DNA of 36,070 nt, taken from the NCBI GenBank assembly GCA_020848695.1, contig JADLHT010000008.1, positions 1 through 36,070 of the forward strand, given 5' to 3'. This DNA comes from Saprospiraceae bacterium (GTDB lineage: Bacteria > Bacteroidota > Bacteroidia > Chitinophagales > Saprospiraceae). Positions 13,360-36,070 of this stretch are shown here, piece by piece; positions within the stretch are counted from its first letter, which is position 1; the number at the start of each line of letters is the position of its first letter. Below the pieces are notes generated by a model, which saw only the letters and a program-made list of their open reading frames with translations, was not told where the DNA came from and ran no database searches. The position numbers and the translations under genes are program-made.

Positions 13360-16300
13360 TTAATTCTTTAAGATCATTTTTCTTACAAAAATCTGCTCTC
13401 CATCTTCAATTTTATAAATATAGATTCCTTCAGATAGAAACTCTTTTCTGGAAACTTCAATATAATTCATTCCAGGTATCAGATTAATAATTTTGTTGAT
13501 TATTCGTTTACCATTGATATCATAGACATTAAAAACACTTGAACATGGTTTAAGAGACTCTACTGGAATTAAAGTCTTGTCTGAGAATGGATTTGGAATA
13601 TTCTGATACAGTACAATTGTATTGGAAGAAACTATACTTGTACTTCCCTCATTTTTAAGTACAAGTTTGGTAAACTCTCCATTCTTATTGTAAGCTTCCG
13701 AAAGCAAACATTCATTGTCAAAATCAAACAAATCAGCTGAATTGCAATTTTCAATGGCCTCAAGCTGAATATTTATAATCCAGTCTTTTGAACTTCCATT
13801 AGCAATCCAGGAGAATTTGATTAGTCCTTGACTTAATAGTTGTGTCCCAATTGACTCTTGACTGAGTGGGCCTTCAGAATCAATTTTTAAATCTACAATT
13901 TTTACTTTTTGAAGATCTGTTCTTATACAACCTTGTGCGCCAAGATAATCTCTATAACTATCAAATCGAATAAATACCGACTTAATTTCACCTTTCTTGA
14001 GATTGACATTTTCTAAAGTCATTGGCACAATCTGAGAATTTCTGGACTTAATTTCCTGCAATCCTGAAAATTTCTGTGAATCATCGACGTCGCCAACTTT
14101 GATCCCTTTAAAGCTTACAAAAACATTATCTCTTAGTACAGGAACAAAATACTCCTCAGGAAAATCTTCACTCAATGGATTTTCGGCATGAATAAAGTTA
14201 TATTCTGAATTTATAAATCGCCAGGATCTATTATTGCTAAAGTTTTCCTTATACCCTAAAATTAATTTTCTAATCTCACTGATATCGGAAGAAGTAATTG
14301 TTTTAGTTCTATTTACGTCCGCAGCTATAAACTGATATGGATCTTTAAACAATTTTTTACCAAGAATATGATTCTGAATCAAGACGATATCATAAGTAGT
14401 AACTCCGTCTAAAGGATCTATATCAAGAGTAGGCCTCAAGGTATAAGTTCCTCCCATCGGCAATTCCTTAAAGGCATAGATTCCGTTATAATCTGACTTA
14501 GATTGAAGGCTACTTTGACTTATTAAGTCTATTGGAACTCCCGCCATTTTCTGATCTTTCCTACTGGACAGATAACCACTGATTCCAGCCTGAACAAAAT
14601 TACTGCAGAAGAAATTTGGATCGGAGACTCTGATCAGTGTTTCACAAGAACTAACATTTCCGGACTTATCCTTAATATAAATTTTAATTGATTTAAAATA
14701 CTCTCTGTTGGCATCTAATGAATCACAACAAATTAATCTTACGGTATCATTAAAATCTGTTGGACTAAATGATATCATAAGCATACTGTTCATTGTACAG
14801 TTGTCTCCTTTCATCACAATAAATTCATTTGCATGAACCTCAACACAGCCAACATCTGGAATTGTCCTGTGTACTTTTTTACAAGTTACAAAAGGGGCCA
14901 CAGTGTCTGTGACGGTAATGTTGATCGTCTTAGTAGAGACATTGCAACAACCATCAGTAGCTGTAAAAGTAACCTGTGTTGTGCCTTCTGGATAAATACC
15001 TGAGGCATCTTCCAGCCCATTGCCTCCGAAACTAGAATTATTCGTAATGACGATTTCTAATGAATCACAATTATCAACAAAGGCTTTTATGTTCAGAAAA
15101 CCAGAACAAGTAGTATCATTTGCAAAAATTGAAGTATCCTTAATCCCCAGAATATTAGGAGCATTGTTATCATCAATCTTGATTTGCTGTACATACATAA
15201 ATTGTGTATTTGTACAACTATCTAAAACAGTCCACTTTCGATTAATCTGACAATTTCCTGGAACACAGAATGAGGAATCTTTAAAGGATACAGAAATTCT
15301 AAAACAACTTGCAACACCTACATCAACAGATGGAACTCCGGTATTGGAAGGATTGGTATCACCGCATTCAGGAACTAGAATTGGCGATTGAGGCCAATTG
15401 ATTTCCAGACTATCCAATGGATCATTGTTATTAACAACAATACTCTGAAGACAGCTTGTACGATTACCGGATGCGTCTGTGGCAGTAAAAAATCTTTTGA
15501 TATCCCCAATTCCGCAAATATTTAAATTAGTTACAACACTATCGATGATTGCAACTCCAGGGCAATTATCCGTGGCAGTAGCTCTTCCAAATACAGATAA
15601 ATTATTCAAGTTTGAACTACATTCTACAGTAGTATCATTTGGACAATTAATTACTGGAGGAATATTTTCAACAACAGTTACTGTAGTTGTACATCGAGCA
15701 ATGTGATTACAGGTATCAACAGCAGTATAGATAACATTAGTAAGTCCGACTGGGAAAACAGTTGGCGCATTATTGCTAAGGCTTATCCCAAAATTACAAG
15801 GACTAGTAAGGACCGGAGGCACCAAGGTCACAATTGCTCCACATAGATTTGGATCAGCATTTACAGTAATATTTGGTGGACAGGATAAGTTTATTGTTCC
15901 TTGATTATAATTAATAATAATTTGTTCTCTTGTAAATACTTGTGATGCACTGCAGGTATTTCGAACAGTCCAGGTTCTTCGAATTGTACTACAAGTTGAA
16001 TTCTGAACTACAACATCATTGAAAACAATATTTATCAAATTACAAAAATCAGAACTTAATACTGGTCTTCCGGTTCTATTTGGACTGGTATTAACCAAGC
16101 AGGTATAGGATTTAAAGGTATCGGCAGGCCAGATTATATCATTTGCTTCAAGATTTATATCCACAACAATTCTTTGTATTCCGAAAAATGTAGTATCGAT
16201 CTGCGGACGACATCTCGCCCTTACATTCCAATTCCTTTCAACCAGATAGCAAATCTCTCCAATTGTAGTTATTGTATCATCTTTATAAGCAATTAAAGTT

Positions 16301-19300
16301 GAATCACAGCCACATTGGACCTGCGGATATCCATTCAAGGAATCAGGTAACAAAGGTTTGCGACAATCATTTACTGTTATGTCAGGAGGATATGTAACAC
16401 CTACTCCACCACCCGTTCTTACAATTATGATTTGATTGTAGAAGTAAGATTGTAATGGATTGCAGTTGCTGAATACATTCCATATTCTTCTAACTACTCT
16501 GACATTATTTCCAGGCGGCAATTCTTCATCTCTAAATGAACTTACTACATTTCCTTTATAATAACAAAAATGCGGCGAACCTCCTGTGACAGATGTATCA
16601 ATAGATCCAACACAATCATTAATTATTACTGAGTCTTGTGGCCACTGAATATCTGATTCCTGAAGATTTGTTGTAACATCGATTATTTGTTTAAACTTAA
16701 AGCTGCTATTATCATTAATACAAAAGAATTCTACTGTCCAATTTCGTTCAATTCTATAGCAGATTCCAGGAAAATTGAAAATGATTTCATCAGTATTCGA
16801 AACTTTAGATGAATCACAGGCACATGAGTTAACAGTTGGTATCGAATTTATTTTGAACGGATCGGTTTCCAACAAACAATCACTGATAACCAGATCAAGT
16901 GGTCGTTTTACACAACCACAGAGATCGGTGTTGTTATTATCCTGAACTTCAACGAATGTTTCACAGCAATCCTGCTTACCATTTGATGCAGTAACACATA
17001 ATAAAACAGTATTTCTACCTATGTTCCTGCAATCAAATGTTATACTATGCTTGCTTGAATCCTGCCCGAAGGACAAAGTAAGATCATATCCACATGGATG
17101 GTTAGATCCCTGATCCAAATCGCTTGCCCAAATTGTTGCATACTCACCATCTATTATTCCATTACCATCCAAATCCATTGGCTCAATACCTACAGCCACT
17201 CCTTTTTTACAATATGCAGACGGCAATTTCGAATTTACAATTTCGAATGTATTTTCACAACTTGTTTTATTCCCACATTTATCTTCGAAAATATACTTTA
17301 CTCGATGCGTTCCTAACTTATAAAATCCACTTGCATCAATCCTTGAGCCTACCCCAGAAGATGTATAGTCAATCCTTCCATCTGAATCAAGATCGATTTC
17401 ATAACGATGTATCAATTCTTCATTAGGAGTACAATCATCTTCCGCTTCGGAAGTTAAGACTACATTAGCGCCATAACAGGAAGTATCATTATCTTCAAAT
17501 TTGAGAAGTTCACAACCTGATAAAATTCTTGGTCCGGCAATATTGTGTGCTTTAAGAATTTGTACGTGTTCATATATTAGTGGCAATCCCAACTTGATTT
17601 CGCTTGATCTACACCAATTGATAATCCGCCACTTTCTTAGTATTTTGAAACATGCATCGCTACCTGTAACAAATCTGAATACTTGATCTTCATAATTAAC
17701 TCCTACCAGATCACAATGATCTTCATTAATAATAGGACGATATGAAGATCCTAGTTTCTCCGGAGATAAAGCATCTACGAAACAGGTTACCGAATCAACG
17801 TCTTCAGGCCAAATAATATTCGACTCATTAAATGGCTCATCATTTATTATTGAAATTCGCTGAGTACATACGTCTAATCCAAAACTATTTCCGGCCATAA
17901 ATATTCTGTCTATATATCCTTCATTGCATTGATTAATACTAATGCTGTCAACTTCAGTAATAGTTACAGTACAATTATCAGAAACTTGAGCTGATCCAAA
18001 GCTTGTCAGATTATTTAAGTCAATATGTTGATCACAATCAATAGTAACATTGTGTGGACAAGTCACATGTGGGATGGTTTTGTCCTGAACCTCAACTTGA
18101 ACCATACAAGTATTAAGGTTTCCGCTTTCATCAGAAACCTGAAGCATAACTGTTACGAGCTGGTCAAGATCAGCACAACAAAATTCGATAGAATCCCTGA
18201 AAACTCTGGAATCAATATTACAAGGTCCTCCATCATCCATTCTTCTTGCTTTGAATGATTTTAGATGGCAGTTATCATAGGAACCATCATCAAAAACGGA
18301 TGCCGGAACCCAGGCTCTTCCGAAGCGATCGAGGCTTATCGCAGTTTCTTTATCACATTGTACTGTTGGAGGAACATTATCTATAACTGTAACATTAAAT
18401 GAACATTTAGATTGATTGTAACAGTTATCGCTTGCATTAATAAATATTTCATTTTCACCTACCGGTAGATTAATAAATCCACCTACAAAATTTTTAACTA
18501 TTCCACCTGAATAGGTCAACGTTATATTAACACCATTATTACAGCTGTCCAATGCGCTAATAGGACTAATATAAACATTAGCGCCGCACTCAGCAGAATT
18601 TGCAAATACTTCCTTATCGTATGGACATTGTATTACAGGTGCTTCAATATCTCTTATCTCGATTAATTGATTGTAAACTCTTTGTTCAAATGTTGTACAA
18701 TACCAAATTGTCAACTTCCAGACTCTGTTTACTTTCTTTATACATTGCGAAGTGGAAATTACGTAATCATCAAATGAAGTAGCAAAATCACAATACTTCA
18801 AATCTGAGTTAGGAAAAAGTGATTGCTCATGGTATAAAGGTACTCCTGTATAATTCGGATCAGGCCTTCCCAAAGAATCTTTTGGATAATCACCACATAC
18901 TAATGAATTATGATTCGACAAAGTAAGTGAATCCGGAAAAACCACAGAATCTAATTCAATTCTCTTTAAAAAATAATCTGAGTTACATATTTTCGAAAGA
19001 TTTCCGGAGGCATCCTTTGCTTGAAATTTTCGATGTACAATTTTTGAATACAATGGGTTGCAGGGTGTGTTTTCTATGGTTTCAGAAAGTAAATTTAATA
19101 TCGGATGCAAGTCACAATTATCAAATACAAGGGGTCCCAAATGAGATTTCATTCTCGTGCAATCAATGGTATCATTTAAACATTGAACAACAGGCGGCAA
19201 TTTATCTTCCACACGTATCCAAGTCCAGCATGAATTTCCGCTGCAAGTATTAATAACTTTTGCCATGAGCGGGGATTTACTGACATGATCATAAGTAACT

Positions 19301-22300
19301 GTATTGTTAGGAACCAGAGATCCATCTTTATTAAAGATCATGACTGCATATGAATCGTAATCATACGGACCACCAATTAATAATTGTTTGGCTGTAACGG
19401 TTGCTTCACAATTTGAATTCAACGAGATCTGTGCTGATCCAATACAAGAAACACTTCCACCCACATTTCCAATGGTTACTGGAATATTTAATGGCTCGAT
19501 ACAAAGATCCGGATTTTGTTCTTTAATAGTTAAGGTATGAGTAGAACCTACTGATCCTGTCCATTCCACCAGTATTGAATTCTTAGTAGGATCAGAAACA
19601 ATATTTCCTCCAGAACCAATTTCCCAAAGGTATTCACTTCCTGGTCGCTTTTGAACGGTATAACGGATTGTAGATCCGGAGCAAACATTATTTTGAGATT
19701 CAAGAACTACAGAAGTTTCATAAGAACATCTTACATTTCCTAAGCTCACTTTGTCTCCATACTGATTTTCTAAAATTATATCAAAACCTTCGCCTGTTAC
19801 AAATATTCCGGACATTCCATATACTGTAGTTGATCCGGTGAAAGTAATTGGACTTAGAGTAAATCCTGCAGGTCCAGTTATAAAAGGATCAGGACTTGCA
19901 GGAGGAGGCGCACTTGAAGCCTGATACAAACCATTTACTGAACGAATAAACCACTCCTCGTCATTTCTGGATTCCAGAGTTAGATCCACAATAAATTGTC
20001 CATCACCTTCAGTGCTTGCATTATTTAAACAAAAACAATCTGAATGTTCAATTACTAAATACAGCAAACCTTCAATGTCTGAATCATCTTCATCTCCCTC
20101 TTCTTCAGGACCCGCAGAAACTGAATTGTCCGAACCATCAAATATATTTCCACCCGGATCATTGGTGTCATCATCGTCAGGTACAGAATCTTCATCCGGT
20201 TCGCTAAATGTATTATCAGCTTTAAAAATTTCTGCACCATTGGTAATTATTCCTGGTCTTGCCTTTGCATTAAGTTTAGTCAAGACGATTATCCTTAAAG
20301 TATCACCGGGAAGTAATCCTTCGGGGCCTAGCTTTCCATTACTTACTGAATAATTAACATAATACTTTCCTGAATTTTCTTCACCCGGCTTTTTATACCA
20401 TTGTGGATCTAATATCGTCAAAGACTCAGGTAAATAATCCACAACTTCAATTTCAGTAGTTGCTAAGGTTCCTTGGTTAACAATTTGTATTGTCCATTCA
20501 ACCTCTCCTTCGATTTCAGCAACTCTTTTGTTCACAAATTTTCTAAGCGACAGATCAAAATTCTTTGGATTGGTTGTAGTTTGATCATGATCATCTTCAT
20601 CTAATAATCCATGATCATCAGTTCGCGAACCATCATACTTATCATTGGTTGGAATTTTATCTTGTTGTGAATCATAATCACAAATCTCAACTCCATTAAG
20701 ATCCTCTATTGAACTTATTTCAGCAATATTAGGTATTTGCAAACCTGCAGTACCGTCATTTATTTTTAAAAATATAGAAATTTCTTTTACAGATCCAGGT
20801 TCAATCGGATCCGAAATATATAAAGTTGCGTTTTGGTCAGAATCCAGTTGCCATAATTCATTATCTGCCTGAGAATAAGTAAAATTCTTATCTATATAAT
20901 TAATAATTTCTACCTTTCCAGGAATAGTATTGCCTTGATTATATATCTTGATTTTAAATTCGACAAGATCACCTTTCTTAAACAACTTAGATCCATCAAC
21001 GATGGTATTTGTAAGTGCCAAATCAGTTACTAAAAATTTTGCACCATCGTGATCATCCTCATCCAATATTCCATGATCCTCAATAACATTATCTGTCAAG
21101 TTACCAGATTGTAAACCCTTATCATTGTTTGGATCAATATCAGGTGTTGAATCATAGTCATAATCTGATATAGTATTGTTCTGATTGTCTGTGAAACCTA
21201 CAATTTCAGCAAAATTAACTGAATTGATCAGATCAATGTCTCCTGTACTTTGAACTTCAATCGGTATTGTTATACTGGCACCAGGCACTATTTCTTTAGC
21301 ATAATTAAAGTAGTAACGATTATCTATTTTTTTCCAACCTAGTTGTATTGATTCGTTTGAAAGTTCAAAAGATGCTGCTAGATAATCAATAATCGAAATA
21401 TTCCGCAGTGGGATACATCCTTGATTATATATTGTAATATCGTAAAGCAAATTACCTTTATACTTTAATCCACAATTAGGACGAAGTTCCTTCTTCAACG
21501 CAAGATCAGCTACAACTAACATTTCCGGATCTTCATCATCTTCATCATTAAATCCATTACCCGTGAGGACATTATCAGAAGCACTACCAAATACTCCCCC
21601 TGCGTCATTACCCAATACTTCATCCGGTTTCGAATCTAAGTCTGATGATGAAACATTAATTCCGTTTGCATCATTAAAACTGACTATTTCTGCTCTTGTT
21701 TCAAGGCATGCTCCTCCTGAATAATTATTTACACTTACCAGAATATCTTTGGTAGCACACTCACCAGGCAACAGTTCCTGTGAAATGATATTATACAATT
21801 TACCATTCTGCAAAATCCAACCATTGTTGTCAGACGAACTCAAAGTAAGCCCAACGGGTAGGTAATGAATAAATTTAACATCCCTGACAGCTTCAGATCC
21901 TTGGTTACAAACACGTATCTGAAGCCTTCTGCTCTCATTTATTCTGATAGGATTTGTATTTTCTTTGGTGAGAATTAATGCCAGATCATAAATTTTAAGA
22001 TTAGCCGGATCGTGATCATCTTCATCATCAATTCCATTTCCATTTACACTATTGTCATAAACGCTGTTTACCTGTCCTCCGGCATCATTAGTTTCGTCTT
22101 TATCAGGGGTTGAATCTTTGTCTTTCAAGACCAATCCATTTTTATCTCTCATAGAAGATATTTCTGCAATATTGACAATATTTCTAATATTGTTAACATT
22201 AATCAGCTTCAGCTTAATAGTAATCGTTTGTTTCTCTCCAACTTGAATGGATTTCTTAGATTTATAAATAGCATTGGTTCCATCTGCAATCCAATCTAAA

Positions 22301-24615
22301 TTTTGACTCTGCACGAATTGAAACTGATTGGGTACATAATCGATAACTTCATAACTATCTACAACTCCATCGCCTTGATTGTAAACTTCAATACTAAACT
22401 CCACAAAATCATTTAGATGAAGACTAGAATACGCAGCAACTCTTTTTAAAAGTGCAAGATCATAAGTAACTGTTGGAGGATTAACAACAGGTGATTTAGG
22501 TTTTAAACCAATATCGTATAAAAATGAATTCTGTCCACTATTTCCGGTAAAAACTACCACTACCGGATAATTTGCAAATGATCCGCATGAAACATTGTCT
22601 AATTTTGCATCGCTGTCATAACTGTCATATACTCCTGCAGACGACCTATCTGAAGCTGTAAGTTCAAGTTCCTGGCCATTTATTAAGATTGTTCTCAATG
22701 AACCATTGTATCGGGAATCATTTAATACAATATAATAGGTCTCACCAAACTTTAATCCATCCATTATTCCGTTCCCATCCAAGTCAACATTGTTCTTATT
22801 GAATAGATAATTTCCATTTATATCAGTTGTTGCAACACCAATTTCTTTGCAATTTTGATCCAACAAAATCAACCTGATTCCATCAATTCCATTTTCATCT
22901 GAATCCTGAATTCCATTACCGTTTTGATCCAGCCATATATAATTACCAAGTTCAATAGGAATAGATTCATTCATTAATTCAACATCACCAATACCGCTTG
23001 CTTTGCCGAAATAGTTATTGTTTCGATTATACAATTCGATACTTGAAATCATTTTACCGTTGTCCGTATTGTATCTGTGTAAACCTCCGGCAAATGATTC
23101 AAATCGTGGATCAAATACAGCATTGATCACTTCAGCATCTTGTCCCGTTGCAACAGTACCAAATGACACTTCAGGGTGTAGGCTTGGACCAACTATCCAA
23201 TAATCTTCTCCAAAAAACTCACCGAATCCTGGACCCTCAAATCTACCAACACCTGAACCCGCTCTTCCATTTACATAACCAGCTCTCTCCAGTGTCCATT
23301 TTGATCCAACTTTATAGGCAACGAGAATGTCACCTTCCTGATTCGTTAATGGGTCACTGCCACCGCAATAAGTATGACCTTTTCGATCTGAAATCCCAAT
23401 GATCATCTCTCCACGATTATTAAAATCAATATCCGTCAACCATTGAGAGGTAAATTTGGAATTGCCGGGATCGGTTAGCCAATAATTTTTGGCAAAATCT
23501 GTTGATAAAATTAAATTGAAAACCCTGGATAACAAATTCAATTCATAGATATGAAAGGACATGGATGATTTAGTAGATTCTCCAGTACAGGTTACACCTA
23601 GGTAAACGTTGCCATTATAATACTTAACTGCTGCTACTGAGAAATCACCAGCTCCGCAAGACGGATTTGGAATGCTCAGTTCAATAATATTATTTGAAGA
23701 AGGATTCGATGTGGGAATGATAAGTAATGATTTTGAAAATAAATTGGTTACCAATAAAAATTGATCATCATCAGATATATCCATATTTCCCAAACCGCTT
23801 TTTCCTACCAGTGAACCAAGCCTGCAATCGGTACTTGCATATCCCAAAGTTGAACCAAGGTTGATTCCCATAGCTTTAAGATCTACAAACGTTGATACTT
23901 TGCCTTGATCATCTATGCTATAAATACCACCAATTCCAAGTGGTCCTAATGGACTGTATTGCTTGACAAATGATGAAGCATATAACAGACTCTTACTTCT
24001 ATTCCAAGCGAGACCGTAAATTGATCCTGTTTTATCATTTCTACATATAGAATTAACTGTCGAACTGCTTGTAAACTTTTGTTTTAAGGAAACTATGGAG
24101 TGAGGTTGCGTACTCGAAATAGGAACCAGACTGTTATTAAAAATGGTAACAGCTATATCCGGATTTGGATTCAAGTTAACTTCAACCGGCCTATATAAGC
24201 CAAAATGTATTTCACAGGCAGGCGAATAAACAAACTTCAGATCTCCGGAGCTGTTGGGTCCTAAAAACGAATACTCATAGTTAGAAGGTTTGACAATCTC
24301 TATCCTATATCTATTGGCATCCGTCAATCCAGTCAAATTATAGTAACCGGACAAATTCGTCAGGCTGCTGGACACAAGAATATTACTCTTATTGTATGCA
24401 TTGATCTGTACAAAAGGAATTACCTCTTCTTGGACATCAAAGGCTCCATTCAGGTTTTGATCCTTGAAGACCTTTCCACTTATTTCACCATTATTGGTAA
24501 TACATTGAGAATATAGCGAATCGCTATACAAGTTGAATAAAGTCAACAAACAAATAAAATATTTGTAACTTTTTTGGACCCAAAACAAATGGGTTTGGTT
24601 GTGTAGTTTACTCAT
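13360..24615 (-). CDS. Giant T9SS-secreted SdrD-B/DUF11/HYR/dockerin-like protein, about 3751 residues
   Basis: The largest protein in the window; secreted, function unknown. Order: signal peptide (about residues 15-35, ending YSQC); SdrD-B-like domain (GKVFKDQNLNGAFD, about 32-105); a region of repeated beta strands resembling a propeller (about 165-540); a second SdrD-B domain (GNYIWLDQNGNGIQD, about 555-700); five DUF11-type repeats beginning near 714, 871, 1032, 1194 and 1354, each ending in an Asp-rich linker; then, from CFCLNN near 1525, the same cysteine-rich body, dockerin-like pair (about 3396-3459), cohesin-like domain and T9SS sorting domain (from about 3671) as the 2412-residue paralogue. 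Start choice: the frame can begin at TTG (24627), but ATG at 24615 places the conserved AACTTGCGTTT block 4 bases upstream, matching the paralogue, so I prefer it. DUF11 and SdrD-B domains are typical of stalks on surface adhesins. Confidence 0.85.
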   Translation of the reverse strand: MSKLHNQTHLFWVQKSYKYFICLLTLFNLYSDSLYSQCITNNGEISGKVFKDQNLNGAFDVQEEVIPFVQINAYNKSNILVSSSLTNLSGYYNLTGLTDANRYRIEIVKPSNYEYSFLGPNSSGDLKFVYSPACEIHFGLYRPVEVNLNPNPDIAVTIFNNSLVPISSTQPHSIVSLKQKFTSSSTVNSICRNDKTGSIYGLAWNRSKSLLYASSFVKQYSPLGPLGIGGIYSIDDQGKVSTFVDLKAMGINLGSTLGYASTDCRLGSLVGKSGLGNMDISDDDQFLLVTNLFSKSLLIIPTSNPSSNNIIELSIPNPSCGAGDFSVAAVKYYNGNVYLGVTCTGESTKSSMSFHIYELNLLSRVFNLILSTDFAKNYWLTDPGNSKFTSQWLTDIDFNNRGEMIIGISDRKGHTYCGGSDPLTNQEGDILVAYKVGSKWTLERAGYVNGRAGSGVGRFEGPGFGEFFGEDYWIVGPSLHPEVSFGTVATGQDAEVINAVFDPRFESFAGGLHRYNTDNGKMISSIELYNRNNNYFGKASGIGDVELMNESIPIELGNYIWLDQNGNGIQDSDENGIDGIRLILLDQNCKEIGVATTDINGNYLFNKNNVDLDGNGIMDGLKFGETYYIVLNDSRYNGSLRTILINGQELELTASDRSSAGVYDSYDSDAKLDNVSCGSFANYPVVVVFTGNSGQNSFLYDIGLKPKSPVVNPPTVTYDLALLKRVAAYSSLHLNDFVEFSIEVYNQGDGVVDSYEVIDYVPNQFQFVQSQNLDWIADGTNAIYKSKKSIQVGEKQTITIKLKLINVNNIRNIVNIAEISSMRDKNGLVLKDKDSTPDKDETNDAGGQVNSVYDNSVNGNGIDDEDDHDPANLKIYDLALILTKENTNPIRINESRRLQIRVCNQGSEAVRDVKFIHYLPVGLTLSSSDNNGWILQNGKLYNIISQELLPGECATKDILVSVNNYSGGACLETRAEIVSFNDANGINVSSSDLDSKPDEVLGNDAGGVFGSASDNVLTGNGFNDEDDEDPEMLVVADLALKKELRPNCGLKYKGNLLYDITIYNQGCIPLRNISIIDYLAASFELSNESIQLGWKKIDNRYYFNYAKEIVPGASITIPIEVQSTGDIDLINSVNFAEIVGFTDNQNNTISDYDYDSTPDIDPNNDKGLQSGNLTDNVIEDHGILDEDDHDGAKFLVTDLALTNTIVDGSKLFKKGDLVEFKIKIYNQGNTIPGKVEIINYIDKNFTYSQADNELWQLDSDQNATLYISDPIEPGSVKEISIFLKINDGTAGLQIPNIAEISSIEDLNGVEICDYDSQQDKIPTNDKYDGSRTDDHGLLDEDDHDQTTTNPKNFDLSLRKFVNKRVAEIEGEVEWTIQIVNQGTLATTEIEVVDYLPESLTILDPQWYKKPGEENSGKYYVNYSVSNGKLGPEGLLPGDTLRIIVLTKLNAKARPGIITNGAEIFKADNTFSEPDEDSVPDDDDTNDPGGNIFDGSDNSVSAGPEEEGDEDDSDIEGLLYLVIEHSDCFCLNNASTEGDGQFIVDLTLESRNDEEWFIRSVNGLYQASSAPPPASPDPFITGPAGFTLSPITFTGSTTVYGMSGIFVTGEGFDIILENQYGDKVSLGNVRCSYETSVVLESQNNVCSGSTIRYTVQKRPGSEYLWEIGSGGNIVSDPTKNSILVEWTGSVGSTHTLTIKEQNPDLCIEPLNIPVTIGNVGGSVSCIGSAQISLNSNCEATVTAKQLLIGGPYDYDSYAVMIFNKDGSLVPNNTVTYDHVSKSPLMAKVINTCSGNSCWTWIRVEDKLPPVVQCLNDTIDCTRMKSHLGPLVFDNCDLHPILNLLSETIENTPCNPLYSKIVHRKFQAKDASGNLSKICNSDYFLKRIELDSVVFPDSLTLSNHNSLVCGDYPKDSLGRPDPNYTGVPLYHEQSLFPNSDLKYCDFATSFDDYVISTSQCIKKVNRVWKLTIWYCTTFEQRVYNQLIEIRDIEAPVIQCPYDKEVFANSAECGANVYISPISALDSCNNGVNITLTYSGGIVKNFVGGFINLPVGENEIFINASDNCYNQSKCSFNVTVIDNVPPTVQCDKETAISLDRFGRAWVPASVFDDGSYDNCHLKSFKARRMDDGGPCNIDSRVFRDSIEFCCADLDQLVTVMLQVSDESGNLNTCMVQVEVQDKTIPHVTCPHNVTIDCDQHIDLNNLTSFGSAQVSDNCTVTITEVDSISINQCNEGYIDRIFMAGNSFGLDVCTQRISIINDEPFNESNIIWPEDVDSVTCFVDALSPEKLGSSYRPIINEDHCDLVGVNYEDQVFRFVTGSDACFKILRKWRIINWCRSSEIKLGLPLIYEHVQILKAHNIAGPRILSGCELLKFEDNDTSCYGANVVLTSEAEDDCTPNEELIHRYEIDLDSDGRIDYTSSGVGSRIDASGFYKLGTHRVKYIFEDKCGNKTSCENTFEIVNSKLPSAYCKKGVAVGIEPMDLDGNGIIDGEYATIWASDLDQGSNHPCGYDLTLSFGQDSSKHSITFDCRNIGRNTVLLCVTASNGKQDCCETFVEVQDNNNTDLCGCVKRPLDLVISDCLLETDPFKINSIPTVNSCACDSSKVSNTDEIIFNFPGICYRIERNWTVEFFCINDNSSFKFKQIIDVTTNLQESDIQWPQDSVIINDCVGSIDTSVTGGSPHFCYYKGNVVSSFRDEELPPGNNVRVVRRIWNVFSNCNPLQSYFYNQIIIVRTGGGVGVTYPPDITVNDCRKPLLPDSLNGYPQVQCGCDSTLIAYKDDTITTIGEICYLVERNWNVRARCRPQIDTTFFGIQRIVVDINLEANDIIWPADTFKSYTCLVNTSPNRTGRPVLSSDFCNLINIVFNDVVVQNSTCSTIRRTWTVRNTCSASQVFTREQIIINYNQGTINLSCPPNITVNADPNLCGAIVTLVPPVLTSPCNFGISLSNNAPTVFPVGLTNVIYTAVDTCNHIARCTTTVTVVENIPPVINCPNDTTVECSSNLNNLSVFGRATATDNCPGVAIIDSVVTNLNICGIGDIKRFFTATDASGNRTSCLQSIVVNNNDPLDSLEINWPQSPILVPECGDTNPSNTGVPSVDVGVASCFRISVSFKDSSFCVPGNCQINRKWTVLDSCTNTQFMYVQQIKIDDNNAPNILGIKDTSIFANDTTCSGFLNIKAFVDNCDSLEIVITNNSSFGGNGLEDASGIYPEGTTQVTFTATDGCCNVSTKTINITVTDTVAPFVTCKKVHRTIPDVGCVEVHANEFIVMKGDNCTMNSMLMISFSPTDFNDTVRLICCDSLDANREYFKSIKIYIKDKSGNVSSCETLIRVSDPNFFCSNFVQAGISGYLSSRKDQKMAGVPIDLISQSSLQSKSDYNGIYAFKELPMGGTYTLRPTLDIDPLDGVTTYDIVLIQNHILGKKLFKDPYQFIAADVNRTKTITSSDISEIRKLILGYKENFSNNRSWRFINSEYNFIHAENPLSEDFPEEYFVPVLRDNVFVSFKGIKVGDVDDSQKFSGLQEIKSRNSQIVPMTLENVNLKKGEIKSVFIRFDSYRDYLGAQGCIRTDLQKVKIVDLKIDSEGPLSQESIGTQLLSQGLIKFSWIANGSSKDWIINIQLEAIENCNSADLFDFDNECLLSEAYNKNGEFTKLVLKNEGSTSIVSSNTIVLYQNIPNPFSDKTLIPVESLKPCSSVFNVYDINGKRIINKIINLIPGMNYIEVSRKEFLSEGIYIYKIEDGEQIFVRKMILKN
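20060..22130 (-). repeat. Five DUF11 units with Asp-rich linkers inside the giant gene
   Basis: Each unit of about 160 codons starts with a DLAL or DLSL motif and ends in a linker built as D-S-x-P-D...N-D-x-G-G...D-N...G-N-G-x-x-D-E-D-D-H-D. The linkers map near 22010-22130, 21530-21650, 21050-21180, 20590-20690 and 20060-20200. The last is the most acidic and joins the DUF11 part to the body shared with the paralogue. The acidic spacing suggests calcium binding, as in other repeat adhesins, but this is inference. Confidence 0.7.
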
Positions 24616-24619
24616 TTTA

Positions 24620-24696
24620 AAACGCAAGTTTATTTAATAACAATTTTGAATACAGCCAAAATAATTGAGCAGTATTGCTACTCGAATTGCGCTAAA
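24620..24696 (-). promoter_or_regulatory. Conserved leader with inverted repeat before the 3751-residue gene
   Basis: AAACGCAAGTT at 24620-24630 and TCGAATTGCGCTAAA at 24682-24696 match the two blocks in the leader of the 2412-residue gene, with a gap of 51 bases here against 54 there. One base differs inside the second block (A for C), which shortens the CGCAA/TTGCG pairing. The sequence between the blocks is not conserved, so selection or recent shared descent has kept only the two blocks. Confidence 0.5.
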
Positions 24697-31357: not shown

Positions 31358-31430
31358 TAAAAAAGGCCCTACCGAAGTGGGCCAAGGCTAAAAGCCTGCA
31401 GAATAATCTTTATTCTGAATTGCTTTCAAT
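31358..31430 (-). ncRNA. Type II-C tracrRNA, about 70 nt
   Basis: On the minus strand the order is: -7 box, anti-repeat ATTGAAAGCAATTCA (31416-31430), hairpin AGAATAA/TTATTCT (31400-31416), hairpin AGGCT/AGCCT (31385-31397), then a terminator stem GGCCCAC/GTAGGGCC (31365-31383) closed by a very stable C(UUCG)G loop and followed by six U (31359-31364). The anti-repeat is an exact 15-base complement of the CRISPR repeat start at 36052-36066, with up to four more wobble-tolerant pairs. It lies just upstream of cas9 and points away from it. It pairs with crRNA and loads Cas9. The start is estimated from the -7 box. Confidence 0.88.
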
Positions 31431-31431
31431 G

Positions 31432-31439
31432 CAAAGATA
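31432..31439 (-). promoter_or_regulatory. tracrRNA -7 box (TATCTTTG)
   Basis: Minus-strand TATCTTTG is an exact TAnnTTTG match ending one base before the anti-repeat, so transcription would start at about the first bases of the anti-repeat. Its upstream elements must overlap the 5' end of cas9's leader, because the cas9 ATG is only 28 bases away. Confidence 0.65.
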
Positions 31440-31467
31440 TGTATATTGCAACTCAATTATTAATATT

Positions 31468-34400
31468 ATGACGAAAGTTTTAGGAATCGACCTTGGGACA
31501 AATTCTATCGGATGGTCATTATTGGAAGAAAATACAAAAATACTTGATGGAGGTGTAGTTATATTTCCTAGAGGGAATAATGAGGACGCAAAGACAGGAA
31601 AGGAATCATCTTTTGCTCAACAAAGAACTACTGCAAGAGGTGCGCGTAGAAGATTATTCAGAAGAAAACTGAGAAGGGAGAGAATACTTTCAATTGCAAA
31701 AGAGCATTTCAATCTCACAGTACTAGATATTTTTAAAGATACCTCGCCTCTCACTCTTTACAAGTTAAGGAGTGAGGCATTAGATAACTTAATTAAACCC
31801 AGTGAACTTTTTAGAATCTTCTTGTACTTTGCAAAAAAAAGAGGATTTTTAAGTAATAGAAAAGAATTAATGCGAGATTCAAACAAAGATCTTGGAGTTG
31901 TTAAGCAAGGTATAAGTAACTTACAAGAACTTATTCATAATTCTCAATCAAGAACTTTAGGTGAGTACTATTACAAATTAATTTCAGATCACTTTAATCA
32001 AAAGCGATTGAATGAACGAATTCTGGAACGATGGACAAGTAGAGAAATGTATGAGCAAGAATTTGATTTAATTATATCAAAGCAAGTTCAATTAGGCAAT
32101 AAGGAGTTAGATTTAGAAATAGTTGCATTGATACGAAAAGAAACTTTTTATCAACGAAGTTTAAAATCAGCAAAAAATCTCGTTGGCAAATGCAGATTAG
32201 AATCATCCAAAAGGTGTATGCCAAGATCTCATCCAACCTTCCAAGAATTCAGAATCTGGCAGAATATTAATAATATTAAATGGGCAAATCCTGATACTTC
32301 TGAAGTTGGGGAATTAAATCAGGACCAAAAACAAAGTTTATTCGAATTATTTAGTCACGAACTAAAAGTTACTGAATCAAAAGTTAAAAAAGTTCTAGGA
32401 TTTTCGACTAGAGTTATATTAAGTGAGATTGAATTAAAGCCCTGTACAACTCTCATTCAACTGCATAAAATATTTCTTGATCACAATATTGATATTGAAT
32501 CCAAAAAGATAAACAATATTTATCATTCTCTATTATATACTCAAGATAATTCATATGAAAAATTTAAAAATTACCTCAACAATAAATATAAAATAAGCTC
32601 AGAAATCGCTCAAAAATTATGGAACCCTGAATTCTTAAAACTTGAACAAGATTATTCGAATATTAGTCATAAGGCTGCAATTAAGTTATTACCATATTTG
32701 AAAAAGGGCCTAAGATATGATGAAGCATGCATAGAAGCAGGTTATCATCATAGCTTAGAAAATAAATTCAAAAACTATAAGTTCGTTCCACAATTAAAAA
32801 CAAATGAATTGCGGAACCCAGTTGTTCAAAAATCAGTCTCAACTTCCATAACATTGATTAACAATATAATTCAAAAACATGGTAAACCTGATATTGTTAG
32901 AATTGAATTAGCCAGAGAATTAAAAAAACCTAAAATAGTACGAGAAAGAATTCGATACAATCAAAGATTAAAAGAGAAGAAAAGAGAGGAATATATTGAA
33001 ATACTTTCTAAGCACTTTGGCAGAATTATCGCATACTCTGAAAGCATATTAGCCAAATATGAGTTATGGTTAGAGTTAGGGTGTAAAGCAGATGATTTCT
33101 CTGACTTTGATGCATTTACCAAAGAAATAAAAAAATCTGATCTCGAAAAGTATAAACTCTGGTTAGAAGCAGATCGTATTTCTCCGTACTCGGGTCAAGT
33201 AATCTCTTTGTCCCAATTGATCAACTCGAAGACCATCGAAATTGAACATATAATTCCATTTAGCCGATCATTAGATAATAGTTTTGCAAACAAGACATTG
33301 TGCGAACGTGACATAAACAAAGATAAAGATAGACTAACACCTTTAGAGTATTTCAATCTTAAGCCTTCTAAAGAAATGAGTGACTTCAAGAGAAGGATTG
33401 CACGGTTTTCTAATCCGCTTAAACGAGAACAATTTTTAAAAACTGAAATCGACAGTAATTTTTTAAATAGCCAAATCTCTGATACTGCATATATTGCTCG
33501 AATCGCGGTTCAAAAAATCTCTCAATGCATTGAAAAAACATATACCACAAAAGGAGGCTTAACTTCAATAATAAGAAAATCTCTTGGATTAAACTCAATA
33601 CTTCATTACGATGGAACAGCAGATGAAATAAAGGACATGAAGAATAGGGGTGATCATAGACATCATTTAATAGATGCCATCACAATTGCCCTAACAACTC
33701 ATTCACTGGCAAACACCATCTCTAGAAAAGCCACATATAATAATAGCAAGCTGGAATTGACTTTAACACCCCCTTGGAATGGCTTTAGATCGGATGTTGA
33801 AGACCTGGTTAATCGAGTTCTGGTTGTTCATAAATTTCCTAAGAAATTGGTCAAAGCGAGTATTAATAAATATAAATATAGTAAATCTGAACGGAAACAA
33901 AAAAAACAACAATTTTCATTAAGGGATGTAATGCACGAAGAAACCTTATATGGCAAGATATTAAACCCTTATACAGGTCAGCATGACTTTGTATTTACCA
34001 AAAAAATTCGGGACCTTGATGAAAAAAAACTTGAAAAAATTGTTGATTTAAAGCTCAAGGAATTCTTAAAAGCCAGACTTCGAGAGCTTGGATCATGGAA
34101 AGAATTAATAAAAAATGAAATTATCTTTAATGACCGACCCCTGAGGAGAGTTAGATTAACTAACCCATCGACTGAATTACCCTTATTAAGAGAAGAGACA
34201 AAAACATATATAGAACCTGGCAATAATTATTGTCAAATTATCTATGAATCAGATCAAGGAAAAAGATCAAACATTTCGCTTAATTATTACGAAGCTGCCA
34301 GAAGAAAATTAAATAAAGAGCTTCTTTATCCTCCATCAATGAACGATAAGAAATTATTATTCTCACTTACTCATTATGATAAGTTCATACTTTATAAGAA

Positions 34401-34626
34401 TAATATTGAAGAAATTGATTGGGCCAATCAGGAAGAAATAACTGAAAGACTTTATCACGTAATTAAGTTTGGCGAAAAGGGAATATTTCTAGGCAAGTCC
34501 AATTTATCCAAAATAAGAGCTGACTATGATAAAGTACCAATTAAAATACAATGCAATCACAATACAATTAAGGCAGTAAAAATTAAATTAAACTTATTAG
34601 GAGAGATAATATGGAGATCTAATTAA
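31468..34626 (+). CDS. cas9: Type II-C Cas9 nuclease, 1052 residues
   Basis: RNA-guided DNA endonuclease. RuvC-I is GIDLGTNSIGWS with Asp8; an arginine-rich bridge helix follows (about residues 52-73); an alpha-helical recognition lobe runs to about 465; RuvC-II has Glu480 in VRIELARE; the HNH domain (about 565-635) has His594, Asn608 and Asn617; RuvC-III is DHRHHLIDA with His733 and Asp736. A wedge/PAM-interacting region fills 760-1052 (YGKILNPYTG, IEPGNNYC). All catalytic residues are present, so both strands should be cut. Length is close to the compact Neisseria and Staphylococcus aureus enzymes and shorter than the roughly 1400-residue Cas9 of many Bacteroidota. Start: the frame extends upstream to 31420, but that would run through the tracrRNA region; ATG at 31468 (MTKVLGIDLG) gives the normal N-terminus. 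Confidence 0.95.
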   Translation: MTKVLGIDLGTNSIGWSLLEENTKILDGGVVIFPRGNNEDAKTGKESSFAQQRTTARGARRRLFRRKLRRERILSIAKEHFNLTVLDIFKDTSPLTLYKLRSEALDNLIKPSELFRIFLYFAKKRGFLSNRKELMRDSNKDLGVVKQGISNLQELIHNSQSRTLGEYYYKLISDHFNQKRLNERILERWTSREMYEQEFDLIISKQVQLGNKELDLEIVALIRKETFYQRSLKSAKNLVGKCRLESSKRCMPRSHPTFQEFRIWQNINNIKWANPDTSEVGELNQDQKQSLFELFSHELKVTESKVKKVLGFSTRVILSEIELKPCTTLIQLHKIFLDHNIDIESKKINNIYHSLLYTQDNSYEKFKNYLNNKYKISSEIAQKLWNPEFLKLEQDYSNISHKAAIKLLPYLKKGLRYDEACIEAGYHHSLENKFKNYKFVPQLKTNELRNPVVQKSVSTSITLINNIIQKHGKPDIVRIELARELKKPKIVRERIRYNQRLKEKKREEYIEILSKHFGRIIAYSESILAKYELWLELGCKADDFSDFDAFTKEIKKSDLEKYKLWLEADRISPYSGQVISLSQLINSKTIEIEHIIPFSRSLDNSFANKTLCERDINKDKDRLTPLEYFNLKPSKEMSDFKRRIARFSNPLKREQFLKTEIDSNFLNSQISDTAYIARIAVQKISQCIEKTYTTKGGLTSIIRKSLGLNSILHYDGTADEIKDMKNRGDHRHHLIDAITIALTTHSLANTISRKATYNNSKLELTLTPPWNGFRSDVEDLVNRVLVVHKFPKKLVKASINKYKYSKSERKQKKQQFSLRDVMHEETLYGKILNPYTGQHDFVFTKKIRDLDEKKLEKIVDLKLKEFLKARLRELGSWKELIKNEIIFNDRPLRRVRLTNPSTELPLLREETKTYIEPGNNYCQIIYESDQGKRSNISLNYYEAARRKLNKELLYPPSMNDKKLLFSLTHYDKFILYKNNIEEIDWANQEEITERLYHVIKFGEKGIFLGKSNLSKIRADYDKVPIKIQCNHNTIKAVKIKLNLLGEIIWRSN

Positions 34627-34673
34627 TTATACACATATTGATTTAAGGCATAATTATTGTAATACTATACTTA

Positions 34674-35582
34674 ATGATCAAAAAGGTTTATTACTTTGAA
34701 AATCCGGTCAGATTAAGTATTAGGAATCAACAGCTCGGAATCTTAAATCTTGCGACACAGGATGAGCAGACAAGAGATCTGGATGATGCCGGATTTATTA
34801 TAATTGATAATCCTCAGATTAGATTCTCGGTACCAGTTCTTCAAAAGTGCCTGGAGAAGAATGTAACTATTACAATCTGCGACCATAAACACATCCCTTC
34901 AGGGTTATTCTTGCCTTTGGATTCTCATACTTTGAGTGGGTTAAGAATGCGAACTCAGTTAGAAGCAAGTAAGCCACTAAATAAGCGGCTTTGGCAAATA
35001 ACAGTTAAGTATAAGATACTCAATCAGGCAAGAGTATTGAATAAATTTAACAAGCCTTCGGAATACCTAATTCATGCATCATCGAAGGTGAGATCTGCGG
35101 ATAGTTCCAATATAGAAGCTACAGCAGCTGCCTATTATTGGAAGAAGCTATTCGGAGAACTCGATGAATTTAAAAGAGATCGATATGGCGCTTCACCTAA
35201 TCATTATCTAAACTATATTTATTCTATTCTGAGATCACAAGTTGCTAAATGCTTAGTTGGGTCAGGATTGTTCCCATTTAAAGGAATTCATCACCACAAC
35301 ACCTACAATGCTTTTTGTCTTGCCGATGACATAATTGAACCATTCAGACCTTACGGGGATGCGCATATTAAGAAACTAATTGATGAAAATCCGGATCTTA
35401 ACCAAGTAGAAGATCTCCCAAGATGGGTGCGACAATCCTGCCTATCTATATTGAATGTTGATGTAAGACTTGAAGGAAGCACCAAGCCAATGCAACTCGC
35501 GATCCAGTCTGTTTGTGCTCGATTAGCGAAATGCTATGATGAAGTTGACCCAACATCTTTATGTTTTCCATTATATGAATAA
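34674..35582 (+). CDS. cas1: Cas1 integrase
   Basis: A 302-residue Cas1 of the type II group, the catalytic subunit that integrates new spacers with Cas2. The N-terminal beta domain (residues 1-85) has the typical KKVYYFENPVRLSIRNQQL opening. The metal-binding residues are Glu148 in SNIEATAAAYYW, His207 in GIHHHNTYNAF and Glu222 in DDIIEPFRPYGD. It begins 47 bases after cas9 and overlaps cas2 by 8 bases, so the three genes are one operon. No cas4 or csn2 is present, which makes the system II-C. Confidence 0.95.
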   Translation: MIKKVYYFENPVRLSIRNQQLGILNLATQDEQTRDLDDAGFIIIDNPQIRFSVPVLQKCLEKNVTITICDHKHIPSGLFLPLDSHTLSGLRMRTQLEASKPLNKRLWQITVKYKILNQARVLNKFNKPSEYLIHASSKVRSADSSNIEATAAAYYWKKLFGELDEFKRDRYGASPNHYLNYIYSILRSQVAKCLVGSGLFPFKGIHHHNTYNAFCLADDIIEPFRPYGDAHIKKLIDENPDLNQVEDLPRWVRQSCLSILNVDVRLEGSTKPMQLAIQSVCARLAKCYDEVDPTSLCFPLYE

Positions 35583-35919
35583 ATCATTAAGATTTAATGC
35601 GTATAGAATTATGTGGGTAATGGTATATTTTGATCTTCCGACTGAGTTAAAAGACGATAAAAAACTCTATACACAATTTAGGAAGAATCTACTTAAATCC
35701 GGATTTAAAATGTTCCAGTTCTCGATCTATGTCAGACATTGCTTAAGTATGGATATTGCTGAAAAATATAAAAAGGGAATTGTAAGACTAATACCTCCCA
35801 AAGGTCATGTTGTAATTAGTTTGATTACAGATAAACAGTTTGGTGCTATGGAAATTCATTATGGTGAAAAAAAATTGATGAACAACCATGGTCCCTATCC
35901 GGAGTTAGAGTTTTTTTAA
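35575..35919 (+). CDS. cas2: Cas2, spacer-acquisition subunit
   Basis: A 114-residue Cas2, the structural partner of Cas1. The ferredoxin-like core starts at MWVMVYFDLPTE, with Asp in the YFDLP strand at the usual site, and continues with FRKNLLKSGFKMFQFSIYVRHC and PPKGHVVISLITDKQFG, both typical of type II-C Cas2. The frame is open from 35536, but ATG at 35575 keeps the family's RFNAYRIMW lead-in and gives the normal length; it overlaps the end of cas1 (ATGAATAA), which suggests translational coupling. An internal ATG at 35611 is a less likely start. Confidence 0.93.
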   Translation: MNKSLRFNAYRIMWVMVYFDLPTELKDDKKLYTQFRKNLLKSGFKMFQFSIYVRHCLSMDIAEKYKKGIVRLIPPKGHVVISLITDKQFGAMEIHYGEKKLMNNHGPYPELEFF

Positions 35920-36022
35920 GAAATTTTAGTTCATTCTTCCAAAAAGAAGGGCAAACAATCAAACATTTTTTGATCCAAAATAATGAATTAAATTATTGAA
36001 TATCAAACTATTGCAGAATTCC
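35920..36022. other. Spacer region between cas2 and the CRISPR repeat
   Basis: About 100 AT-rich bases with no ORF. ATCAAA (35958-35963) can pair with TTTGAT (35969-35974), and AATAAT (35979-35984) with ATTATT (35992-35997); both hairpins are weak. cas2 transcripts run in from the left and repeat-driven transcripts from the right, so some convergent termination is expected here, but no strong terminator is seen. It may also hold signals for spacer integration. Confidence 0.4.
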
Positions 36023-36070
36023 TTATACTGCAAATATAATTTAATCTAAAAATTGAAAGCAATTCAAAAC
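36023..36070 (-). CRISPR. Terminal type II-C CRISPR repeat; array continues past the window
   Basis: On the minus strand, base 36070 begins GTTTTGAATTGCTTTCAAT, the 5' form typical of Bacteroidota II-C repeats (related to GTTGTGAATTGCTTTCAAA). This part is complementary to the tracrRNA anti-repeat. A -7 box follows within the expected repeat length. Only one copy is inside the window, so the repeat's 3' end is uncertain: I assume about 48 bases, and no AAC-type ending is seen, which may mean a degenerate last repeat. A small hairpin TTGCAG/CTGCAA (36011-36033) straddles that end. In this orientation the first spacer lies beyond base 36070. Confidence 0.75.
36031..36038 (-). promoter_or_regulatory. 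-7 box TATATTTG inside the CRISPR repeat
   Basis: Minus-strand TATATTTG matches TAnnTTTG, with a TTG from the conserved GAATTGC of the repeat 21 bases upstream. If every repeat carries it, each spacer-repeat unit would be transcribed separately, as known for type II-C arrays of Neisseria and Campylobacter. Transcription from this copy would run toward the end of cas2. Confidence 0.5.

Follow-up and report, generated by a model that had tools for sequence, protein, structure and literature searches.

A probable primary sigma promoter box beside the tracrRNA anti-repeat and inside the repeats of type II-C CRISPR loci of Bacteroidota

In the type II-C CRISPR (clustered regularly interspaced short palindromic repeats) system of Campylobacter jejuni a promoter lies in the 3′ part of each repeat, and a single RNase III event generates the 3′ end of the CRISPR RNA (crRNA) (PMC3656092). 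Both features, the repeat-internal crRNA promoter and the single RNase III event, are shared by the II-C system of Neisseria meningitidis, as cited in PMC7038990. We have studied a type II-C locus of a Saprospiraceae bacterium of the phylum Bacteroidota (assembly GCA_020848695.1, contig JADLHT010000008.1), at positions 31,358 to 36,070 of a stretch of 36,070 nucleotides that we call the window. Both the trans-activating CRISPR RNA (tracrRNA) gene and the repeat of this locus carry the motif TAnnTTTG, which occurs at −7 in the sigma-ABfr promoters of Bacteroides fragilis and B. thetaiotaomicron, the B. thetaiotaomicron motif being centred at −7 (PMC7366714). Those promoters were mapped by differential RNA sequencing upstream of genes, whereas the promoters proposed here are deduced from sequence inside repeats. 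It is very probable that the tracrRNA and, separately, each crRNA of the locus use promoters of the Bacteroidota primary sigma factor with TAnnTTTG at −7.

The repeat box of Bacteroidota is best read as a variant of the Campylobacter and Neisseria arrangement, the box being placed in the 3′ part of the repeat in each case. In C. jejuni an extended −10 box GGTAAAAT ends the repeat and transcription starts at nucleotide 5 of the spacer, whereas the predicted start in Bacteroidota falls within the last bases of the repeat. Within the phylum, the II-C systems of Flavobacterium columnare and F. psychrophilum (the latter with repeats of 46 bp) share transcription toward the leader and a proposed repeat-encoded promoter. 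They differ in that, in the parts of those reports covered, the proposal consists of a TTG only, 33 or 35 bp before the spacer, with TAnnTTTG named only for cas9 (PMC8092290, PMC10309648). The II-C CRISPR1 locus of Riemerella anatipestifer likewise has repeats of 47 nt and an anti-repeat upstream of cas9; the absence of a promoter from its repeats is stated there, and the predictor named was applied to the leaders (PMC5006608). Among the matches listed, the Flavobacterium TTG proposals and the Riemerella statement are the closest prior work, and no earlier description of TAnnTTTG inside II-C repeats was present among these matches, which come from the open-licence literature and do not extend to subscription papers such as the original Neisseria study.

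The tracrRNA box TATCTTTG lies at 31,432–31,439 on the minus strand, directly 5′ of the anti-repeat, and a single base (C at 31,431) separates it from the first repeat-pairing base in a co-fold. The second box, TATATTTG, lies at 36,031–36,038 on the minus strand and occupies nucleotides 33–40 of the leader-proximal repeat GTTTTGAATTGCTTTCAATTTTTAGATTAAATTATATTTGCAGTATA (47 nt, 36,024–36,070, minus strand). Both boxes are exact, and the dinucleotide CA follows each. The original prediction had placed one TAnnTTTG box against the anti-repeat and the other within the repeat, followed by CA or C, and these placements proved correct. A repeat length of 46–47 nt was deduced from the matching leader start of the congener L103 (AGGACCTCTGCAACG versus AGGAATTCTGCAATA), and since the 3′ end of the repeat is set by this alignment the box is taken to lie inside the repeat, 7 nt from its end.

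In the whole window there are 46 copies of TAnnTTTG, 19 on the plus and 27 on the minus strand. A box in one repeat is thus weak evidence taken alone, and the case therefore rests on the box in congeners and across the phylum. The congener G435, the Cas9 of which is 58% identical to that of the window, has at least 72 identical repeats GTTTTGAATTGCTTTCAATTTTAAAGAAGTATCTTTGAACAACTAC on a contig that begins inside the array, and in the congener G542 a related repeat of 44 nt is present in 10 copies. The sequence TATCTTTG is present in 72/72 and 10/10 of these (82/82 together), so that the observation named beforehand as fatal to the prediction, a box absent from internal repeats, is answered in the congeners. 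The consensus repeats of the window, G435 and G542 are equal over nucleotides 1–22 and differ in the remaining 3′ part by substitutions and by insertions and deletions. The box starts at nucleotide 30 in G435, 29 in G542 and 33 in the window, with 9, 8 and 7 nt respectively from box to repeat end. Searching the source genome gave, besides the repeat at the end of the window, a single isolated divergent copy (C55:128–181; L002, L107) with TAAATTTG, and an isolated copy in G541:C42 (L118) reads TATCATTG, one mismatch from TAnnTTTG. No neighbouring repeat is seen beside either, and they may be remnants or solitary units.

The box is also enriched outside the locus, as judged from 150 upstream regions in 378 kb of the 3.18 Mb source genome. 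TAnnTTTG is found in the sense orientation in 65 of these regions and in the antisense orientation in 36, compared with a mean of 21.8 and a maximum of 29 in 50 shuffle runs. The pair most often following the upstream box is CA (13 cases).

For the phylum-wide comparison we collected two samples. In the first, the profile TIGR01865 scored above cut-off in 65 of 394 Bacteroidota genomes, giving 65 regions of which 55 with an array were kept for counting; congeners and others were added, as were 80 named loci from a mixture of phyla, which were the best 80 among 505 candidates that had been confirmed. The 73 Bacteroidota repeats, including that of the window, were de-replicated at 80% identity into 46 clusters with one representative each, and the box was sought from repeat nucleotide 19 to the end, with 500 letter shuffles. 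We excluded arrays with repeats outside 34–50 nt or with fewer than three start-motif matches on both strands, and the three-copy second array of L153. Orientation was assigned by the start-motif rule; L184 was re-oriented afterwards, and L046, L049 and L050 were set by hand from the tracrRNA. The unplaced organism L133, with an exact box, stands outside the repeat clusters and is counted with Bacteroidota in the terminal-repeat decay and truncation counts. For the second sample the motif was fixed beforehand. Forty of 48 new Cas9 places were taken, giving 26 loci and 27 arrays; removal of L221 and L222 left 25 arrays in 13 clusters, which were compared with 1000 shuffle runs. The array of L235, left out by the start rule, has a one-mismatch box, and L249 enters the repeat count and not the truncation and terminal-box-retention counts. 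L221 (G615:C28, a contig of 6381 bases) belongs to a Bacteroidota bin but its repeat, GTTGTAGCTCCCTCTCTCACCCCGGAAGGCTACAATC, is Neisseria-like, and contamination is suspected.

In the first sample 19 of 46 clusters have an exact TAnnTTTG (shuffle mean 0.8, maximum 4), and 39 match if one mismatch is allowed (mean 11.4, maximum 20). On the opposite strand the corresponding values are 0 and 2 of 46, and the reversed motif gives 2 and 12. Ranked among all motifs of the form XXnnXXXX, TAnnTTTG is first, with 19 clusters against 12 for the next, an overlapping motif. The second sample gave 4/13 clusters exact and 10/13 within one mismatch (shuffle means 0.22 and 3.17, maxima 3 and 8), bringing both samples together to 23/59 and 49/59. 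Counted by array from nucleotide 17, the box is exact in 25/73 and within one mismatch in 58/73 in the first sample, and in 12/25 and 23/25 in the second. Among the isolates covered, Perlabentimonas gracilis (L165) has an exact box, Sediminibacterium sp. C3 (L189) a one-mismatch box and Pedobacter chinensis (L190) none in its repeat. One alternative is that the boxes are chance matches in A+T-rich repeats, and the 46 copies on both strands of the window speak for it. However, the shuffles, the opposite strand, the reversed motif, the further genomes and the other phyla (below) all fall far below the observed counts, and as an account of the phylum-wide pattern chance is scarcely credible; individual repeats with a one-mismatch box may possibly be due to it.

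The place of the box is favoured and not fixed. The original prediction had suggested aligning Bacteroidota II-C repeats to see if TAnnTTTG is conserved at a fixed position in them; conservation is evident in both samples, and the fixed position is not. Among boxed clusters the start ranges over nucleotides 17–33, 3–23 nt from the repeat end, and in 49 of 51 the box is 3–17 nt before that end. In boxed clusters with long repeats (44–48 nt) the start is at nucleotide 23–24 in 24/42, and 14–17 nt follow the box in 30/42. A start at nucleotide 21–26 is common to 9/9 boxed clusters with short repeats (35–37 nt) and 29/42 with long ones. The tail following the box is mostly some 10–11 nt longer in long repeats than in short, close to one helical turn. 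At the two n positions the letters are variable, and 8 dinucleotides occur among the 19 exact boxes.

The repeats sampled from other phyla lack the box. None of 18 clusters has it, either exactly or within one mismatch, and by array the counts are 0/23 and 1/23 (L151); the commonest 3′ hexamer of these repeats is TACACT (5/18). Orientation is uncertain for some of them (L142, L159, L185 and L198 come out reading away from cas9), and neither strand has an exact box. Among type I-C arrays of the same phylum none of 18 reaches five of the six positions on either strand, a weak control as these repeats are G+C-rich. In a Cas9 tree (106 sequences, FastTree only, midpoint root) the window shares a single clade with all long repeats that have an exact box; short boxed repeats belong to this clade too, as does the unplaced L133. 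Two long repeats, those of L095 (one mismatch) and L087 (no box), are placed outside it. The boxed short repeats of L046, L049 and L050 and that of L043 sit elsewhere, L043 near box-less sequences of other phyla, a placement that hints at repeated gain of the box.

The tracrRNA genes were examined in the same way. With an anti-repeat score of at least 27 and divergence from cas9 required, 45 of the 72 first-sample Bacteroidota loci outside one family of arrays that run away from cas9 (see below) were retained, in 30 clusters. Within 20 nt before the anti-repeat the box is exact in 15/30 clusters and within one mismatch in 26/30, against shuffle means of 0.5 and 7.7 (maxima 4 and 16) and opposite-strand counts of 0 and 2. 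Exact boxes occur in 2/30 in a control stretch 25–45 nt before the anti-repeat. Of the 25 second-sample loci 19 have a clear anti-repeat, and here the box is exact in 13/19 and within one mismatch in 19/19 (shuffle means 0.42 and 5.73, maxima 3 and 13). The tracrRNA genes of other phyla gave 0/12. Box and scored anti-repeat are 6–8 nt apart in 15/27, and there is no gap between them in the window and L103; given the 6–8 nt spacing, the tracrRNA start would fall near the first pairing base.

We have also considered the direction in which the arrays are read. All kept arrays are downstream of cas9. In the window the repeat is on the minus and the cas genes on the plus strand, so that the array is read toward the cas genes and, on the crRNA strand, the leader is downstream of it. 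The same polarity is found in 72/72 first-sample Bacteroidota relatives outside the away-running family. Truncated repeats mark the old end of an array. Of 73 arrays whose crRNA-5′ end falls within the locus 36 have one there, compared with 2 of 97 for the leader end. Arrays of other phyla resemble Bacteroidota (5/17 and 0/20), and type I-C arrays are reversed (0/18 at the crRNA-5′ end, 4/13 at the leader end). Because the leader lies downstream of transcription, a leader promoter cannot drive the Bacteroidota arrays. The exceptions that run away from cas9 are L249 and the family with repeats beginning GTTGTGGTTTGATTAAAG (nine first-sample loci, L047, L078, L079, L084, L085, L090, L091, L093 and L125, together with L222). 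In this family the repeats have 0/9 exact boxes and 1/9 (L079) within one mismatch, 8/9 have an exact or one-mismatch box 18–21 nt before the scored part of the anti-repeat, and the truncation counts (1/10 and 0/9) are uninformative. L249:8,871–11,211 is a long-repeat array with TATCTTTG at repeat nucleotides 17–24, inverted according to the script orientation.

The extra, oldest repeat of II-C arrays has been reported to carry mutations mostly in its first 15 nt and may need its promoter function; the parts of that study covered give no Bacteroidota promoter sequence (PMC12080349), whereas in our arrays the part that is kept holds TAnnTTTG. The whole box is retained in 25 of 28 truncated terminal repeats of boxed arrays, where 16.6 would be expected with uniform breakpoints, and in 19/20 by cluster (12.0 expected). 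We also considered terminal-repeat decay as a sign of box-specific selection; this was ruled out, since the whole 3′ half is kept, and only the breakpoint result is retained.

That the entire 3′ half survives in terminal copies could be expected if the box were a by-product of some other constraint on this half, such as integration by Cas1–Cas2 or RNA structure, with each array read from one distal promoter; the descent that the repeats share and the clusters without a box are also in keeping with this. Yet the box shifts relative to both repeat ends while its letters stay constant, its n positions vary, and the repeats of other phyla do without it. The tracrRNA, which has no role in integration, has the same box at the expected start. 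Furthermore, the distal flanks of the box-less arrays and of four others examined show no consistent TAnnTTTG. We consider a by-product unlikely.

A different candidate is the TTG proposed as the repeat promoter in Flavobacterium (PMC8092290, PMC10309648, as far as these were covered), to which TAnnTTTG would be secondary. In support of this, 26 of 40 boxed clusters have a TTG 18–20 nt ahead of the box. In the window repeat it lies 21 and 26 nt before the box, the nearer one (36,060–36,062, minus strand, repeat nucleotides 9–11) being the candidate −33 element. Before the tracrRNA box a TTG is present at 19–20 nt in 15/27 of the first sample, and at 18, 19, 20 and 21 nt in 4, 5, 4 and 3 of 19 in the second (up to 16/19). 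A −33 element alone does not make a promoter, and would be the partner of a −7 box. Moreover, the TTGs of the repeats sit in the half that pairs with the tracrRNA, many repeats of other phyla also begin with GTTG, and terminal copies keep the box and lose the TTG. The TTG as the promoter proper is thus very improbable, while a −33 element assisting the −7 box in repeats, where it overlaps the pairing half, is weakly supported. A complete −33/−7 promoter was rejected as the reason for the 46–48-nt repeats, because short and long repeats mostly have the box equally far from the 5′ end, their tails differ and terminal copies lose the TTG.

Returning to the interpretation that the boxes are primary sigma promoters, a number of observations weigh against it. 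The contig and the window stop exactly at the first base of the repeat, so that only the leader-proximal copy is present and the internal repeats of this array are unassembled. The clusters share ancestry, and the cluster counts are therefore not independent events. No box is found even within one mismatch in 8/59 clusters when scanned from nucleotide 17 (L034, L035, L051, L053, L080, L190, L224 and L250), or in 10/59 from nucleotide 19. Among 15 box-less first-sample arrays L087 alone has an exact box in the distal 80 nt, and five others have a one-mismatch box there; since this amounts to 6/15 there is no consistent substitute promoter. One-mismatch boxes are common by chance before the anti-repeat, with 12/30 in the control stretch versus 26/30 near it. 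In the upstream regions of the source genome the sense-over-antisense excess is larger for TTnnTTTT (123 versus 84) than for TAnnTTTG (74 versus 39), which ranks second. Degenerate terminal repeats are changed at 8 of 246 box sites versus 35 of 887 other 3′ sites. As for the −33 element, the window tracrRNA has a TTG only 9 and 14 nt before its box, the upstream regions of the source genome have no peak of TTG spacing, and of 25 truncated terminal repeats with the box retained 22 lack a TTG (present in 3/25, versus 21/25 of their consensus repeats). Separately, the Bacteroidota II-C arrays of L035, L036, L037, L039 and L069 (repeats GYTGTGRTTTGAACTCTTTTCGAGATGAWTTAGATT), which also have the cas genes ahead of them in the direction of reading, lack both a repeat box and an exact box in the distal flank.

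The motif, its position and strand, its conservation, the array polarity and, for the phyla sampled, the restriction to Bacteroidota can be read directly from the sequences. From them we infer binding by the sigma factor, the start sites, individual crRNA transcripts and trimming by RNase III. The promoter of the tracrRNA would end at the anti-repeat, with transcription starting near the first base of the pairing region. That of each crRNA would be in the 3′ part, beyond repeat nucleotides 1–19 that pair with the tracrRNA, and would start transcription in the last bases of the repeat; the transcript would then cover the spacer that follows and, in the repeat after it, the pairing half, where RNase III would make the 3′ end, as expected from C. 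jejuni. The idea that Bacteroidota have the repeat-internal logic of Campylobacter and Neisseria with their own sigma factor is supported in part, by the boxes in repeats and tracrRNA genes across the phylum, and its start sites remain predictions.

The predicted 5′ ends differ between repeats. In the genus of the window transcription would start a few bases after the box, and the crRNA would begin a few bases before the repeat ends. In most long repeats (30 of 42 boxed clusters), with 14–17 nt after the box, about 10 nt of repeat would precede the spacer, so that there may still be some trimming at the 5′ end. Transcription from repeat promoters would likely free the crRNA 5′ end from RNase III, as had been predicted, and does not imply freedom from all 5′ trimming. 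Fp2Cas9 of F. psychrophilum is reported to work in vitro with spacers of 22–30 nt, and best with 24–26 nt (PMC12609912).

The remaining features of the locus are those of a type II-C CRISPR-Cas system of a Bacteroidota bacterium, with cas9, cas1, cas2, a tracrRNA bearing an anti-repeat and an array read toward the leader and cas genes. The tracrRNA gene (31,358–31,431, minus strand, ends predicted) comprises the anti-repeat, which forms 19 bp with repeat nucleotides 1–19 in the co-fold, hairpins, and a terminator consisting of the hairpin GGCCCACTTCGGTAGGGCC followed by T6. On the plus strand, cas9 (31,468–34,626) encodes 1052 amino acids from the ATG at 31,468 and matches NCBIfam TIGR01865 with 529.6 bits, as well as Pfam HNH_4, RuvC_III and Cas9_a. 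It is followed on that strand by cas1 (34,674–35,582; TIGR03639 cas1_NMENI, 245.4 bits) and cas2 (35,536–35,919, the bounds of the open reading frame; TIGR01573, PF09827). The Cas2 domain begins at residue 26 of its frame, so the true start may be further in. These three genes fill 31,468–35,919 and are adjoined by the leader (35,920–36,023, no strand assigned), the first bases of which match that of L103, and the repeat. A profile search of five open reading frames at the locus, which ends with the contig, found no match to csn2 or cas4, and Rfam at gathering thresholds gave no match in the window. Elsewhere in the window there are two very long minus-strand reading frames, at 5,804–13,042 (2412 amino acids) and 13,360–24,627 (3755 amino acids).

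We suggest tentatively, and as somewhat less probable than its converse, that the primary sigma factor has shaped the repeat. II-C repeats would have gained the −7 box more than once (in the main clade with the window, in L046, L049 and L050, and in L043), and repeat, tracrRNA promoter and sigma factor would form a phylum-locked set, such that arrays moved to other phyla would be silent until their repeats changed.

In many Bacteroidota with a compact Cas9, each stored memory of a virus is probably switched on by its own repeat. This extends the model of individually transcribed crRNAs from the II-C systems of Campylobacter and Neisseria to a phylum with a different promoter code, and may explain why a promoter went unrecognised in the Riemerella repeats. 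It gives the direction of transcription and likely start sites for the guide RNAs of Bacteroidota Cas9 orthologues. It also suggests that host transcription acts as a constraint on the evolution of repeats and on the transfer of CRISPR arrays between phyla.

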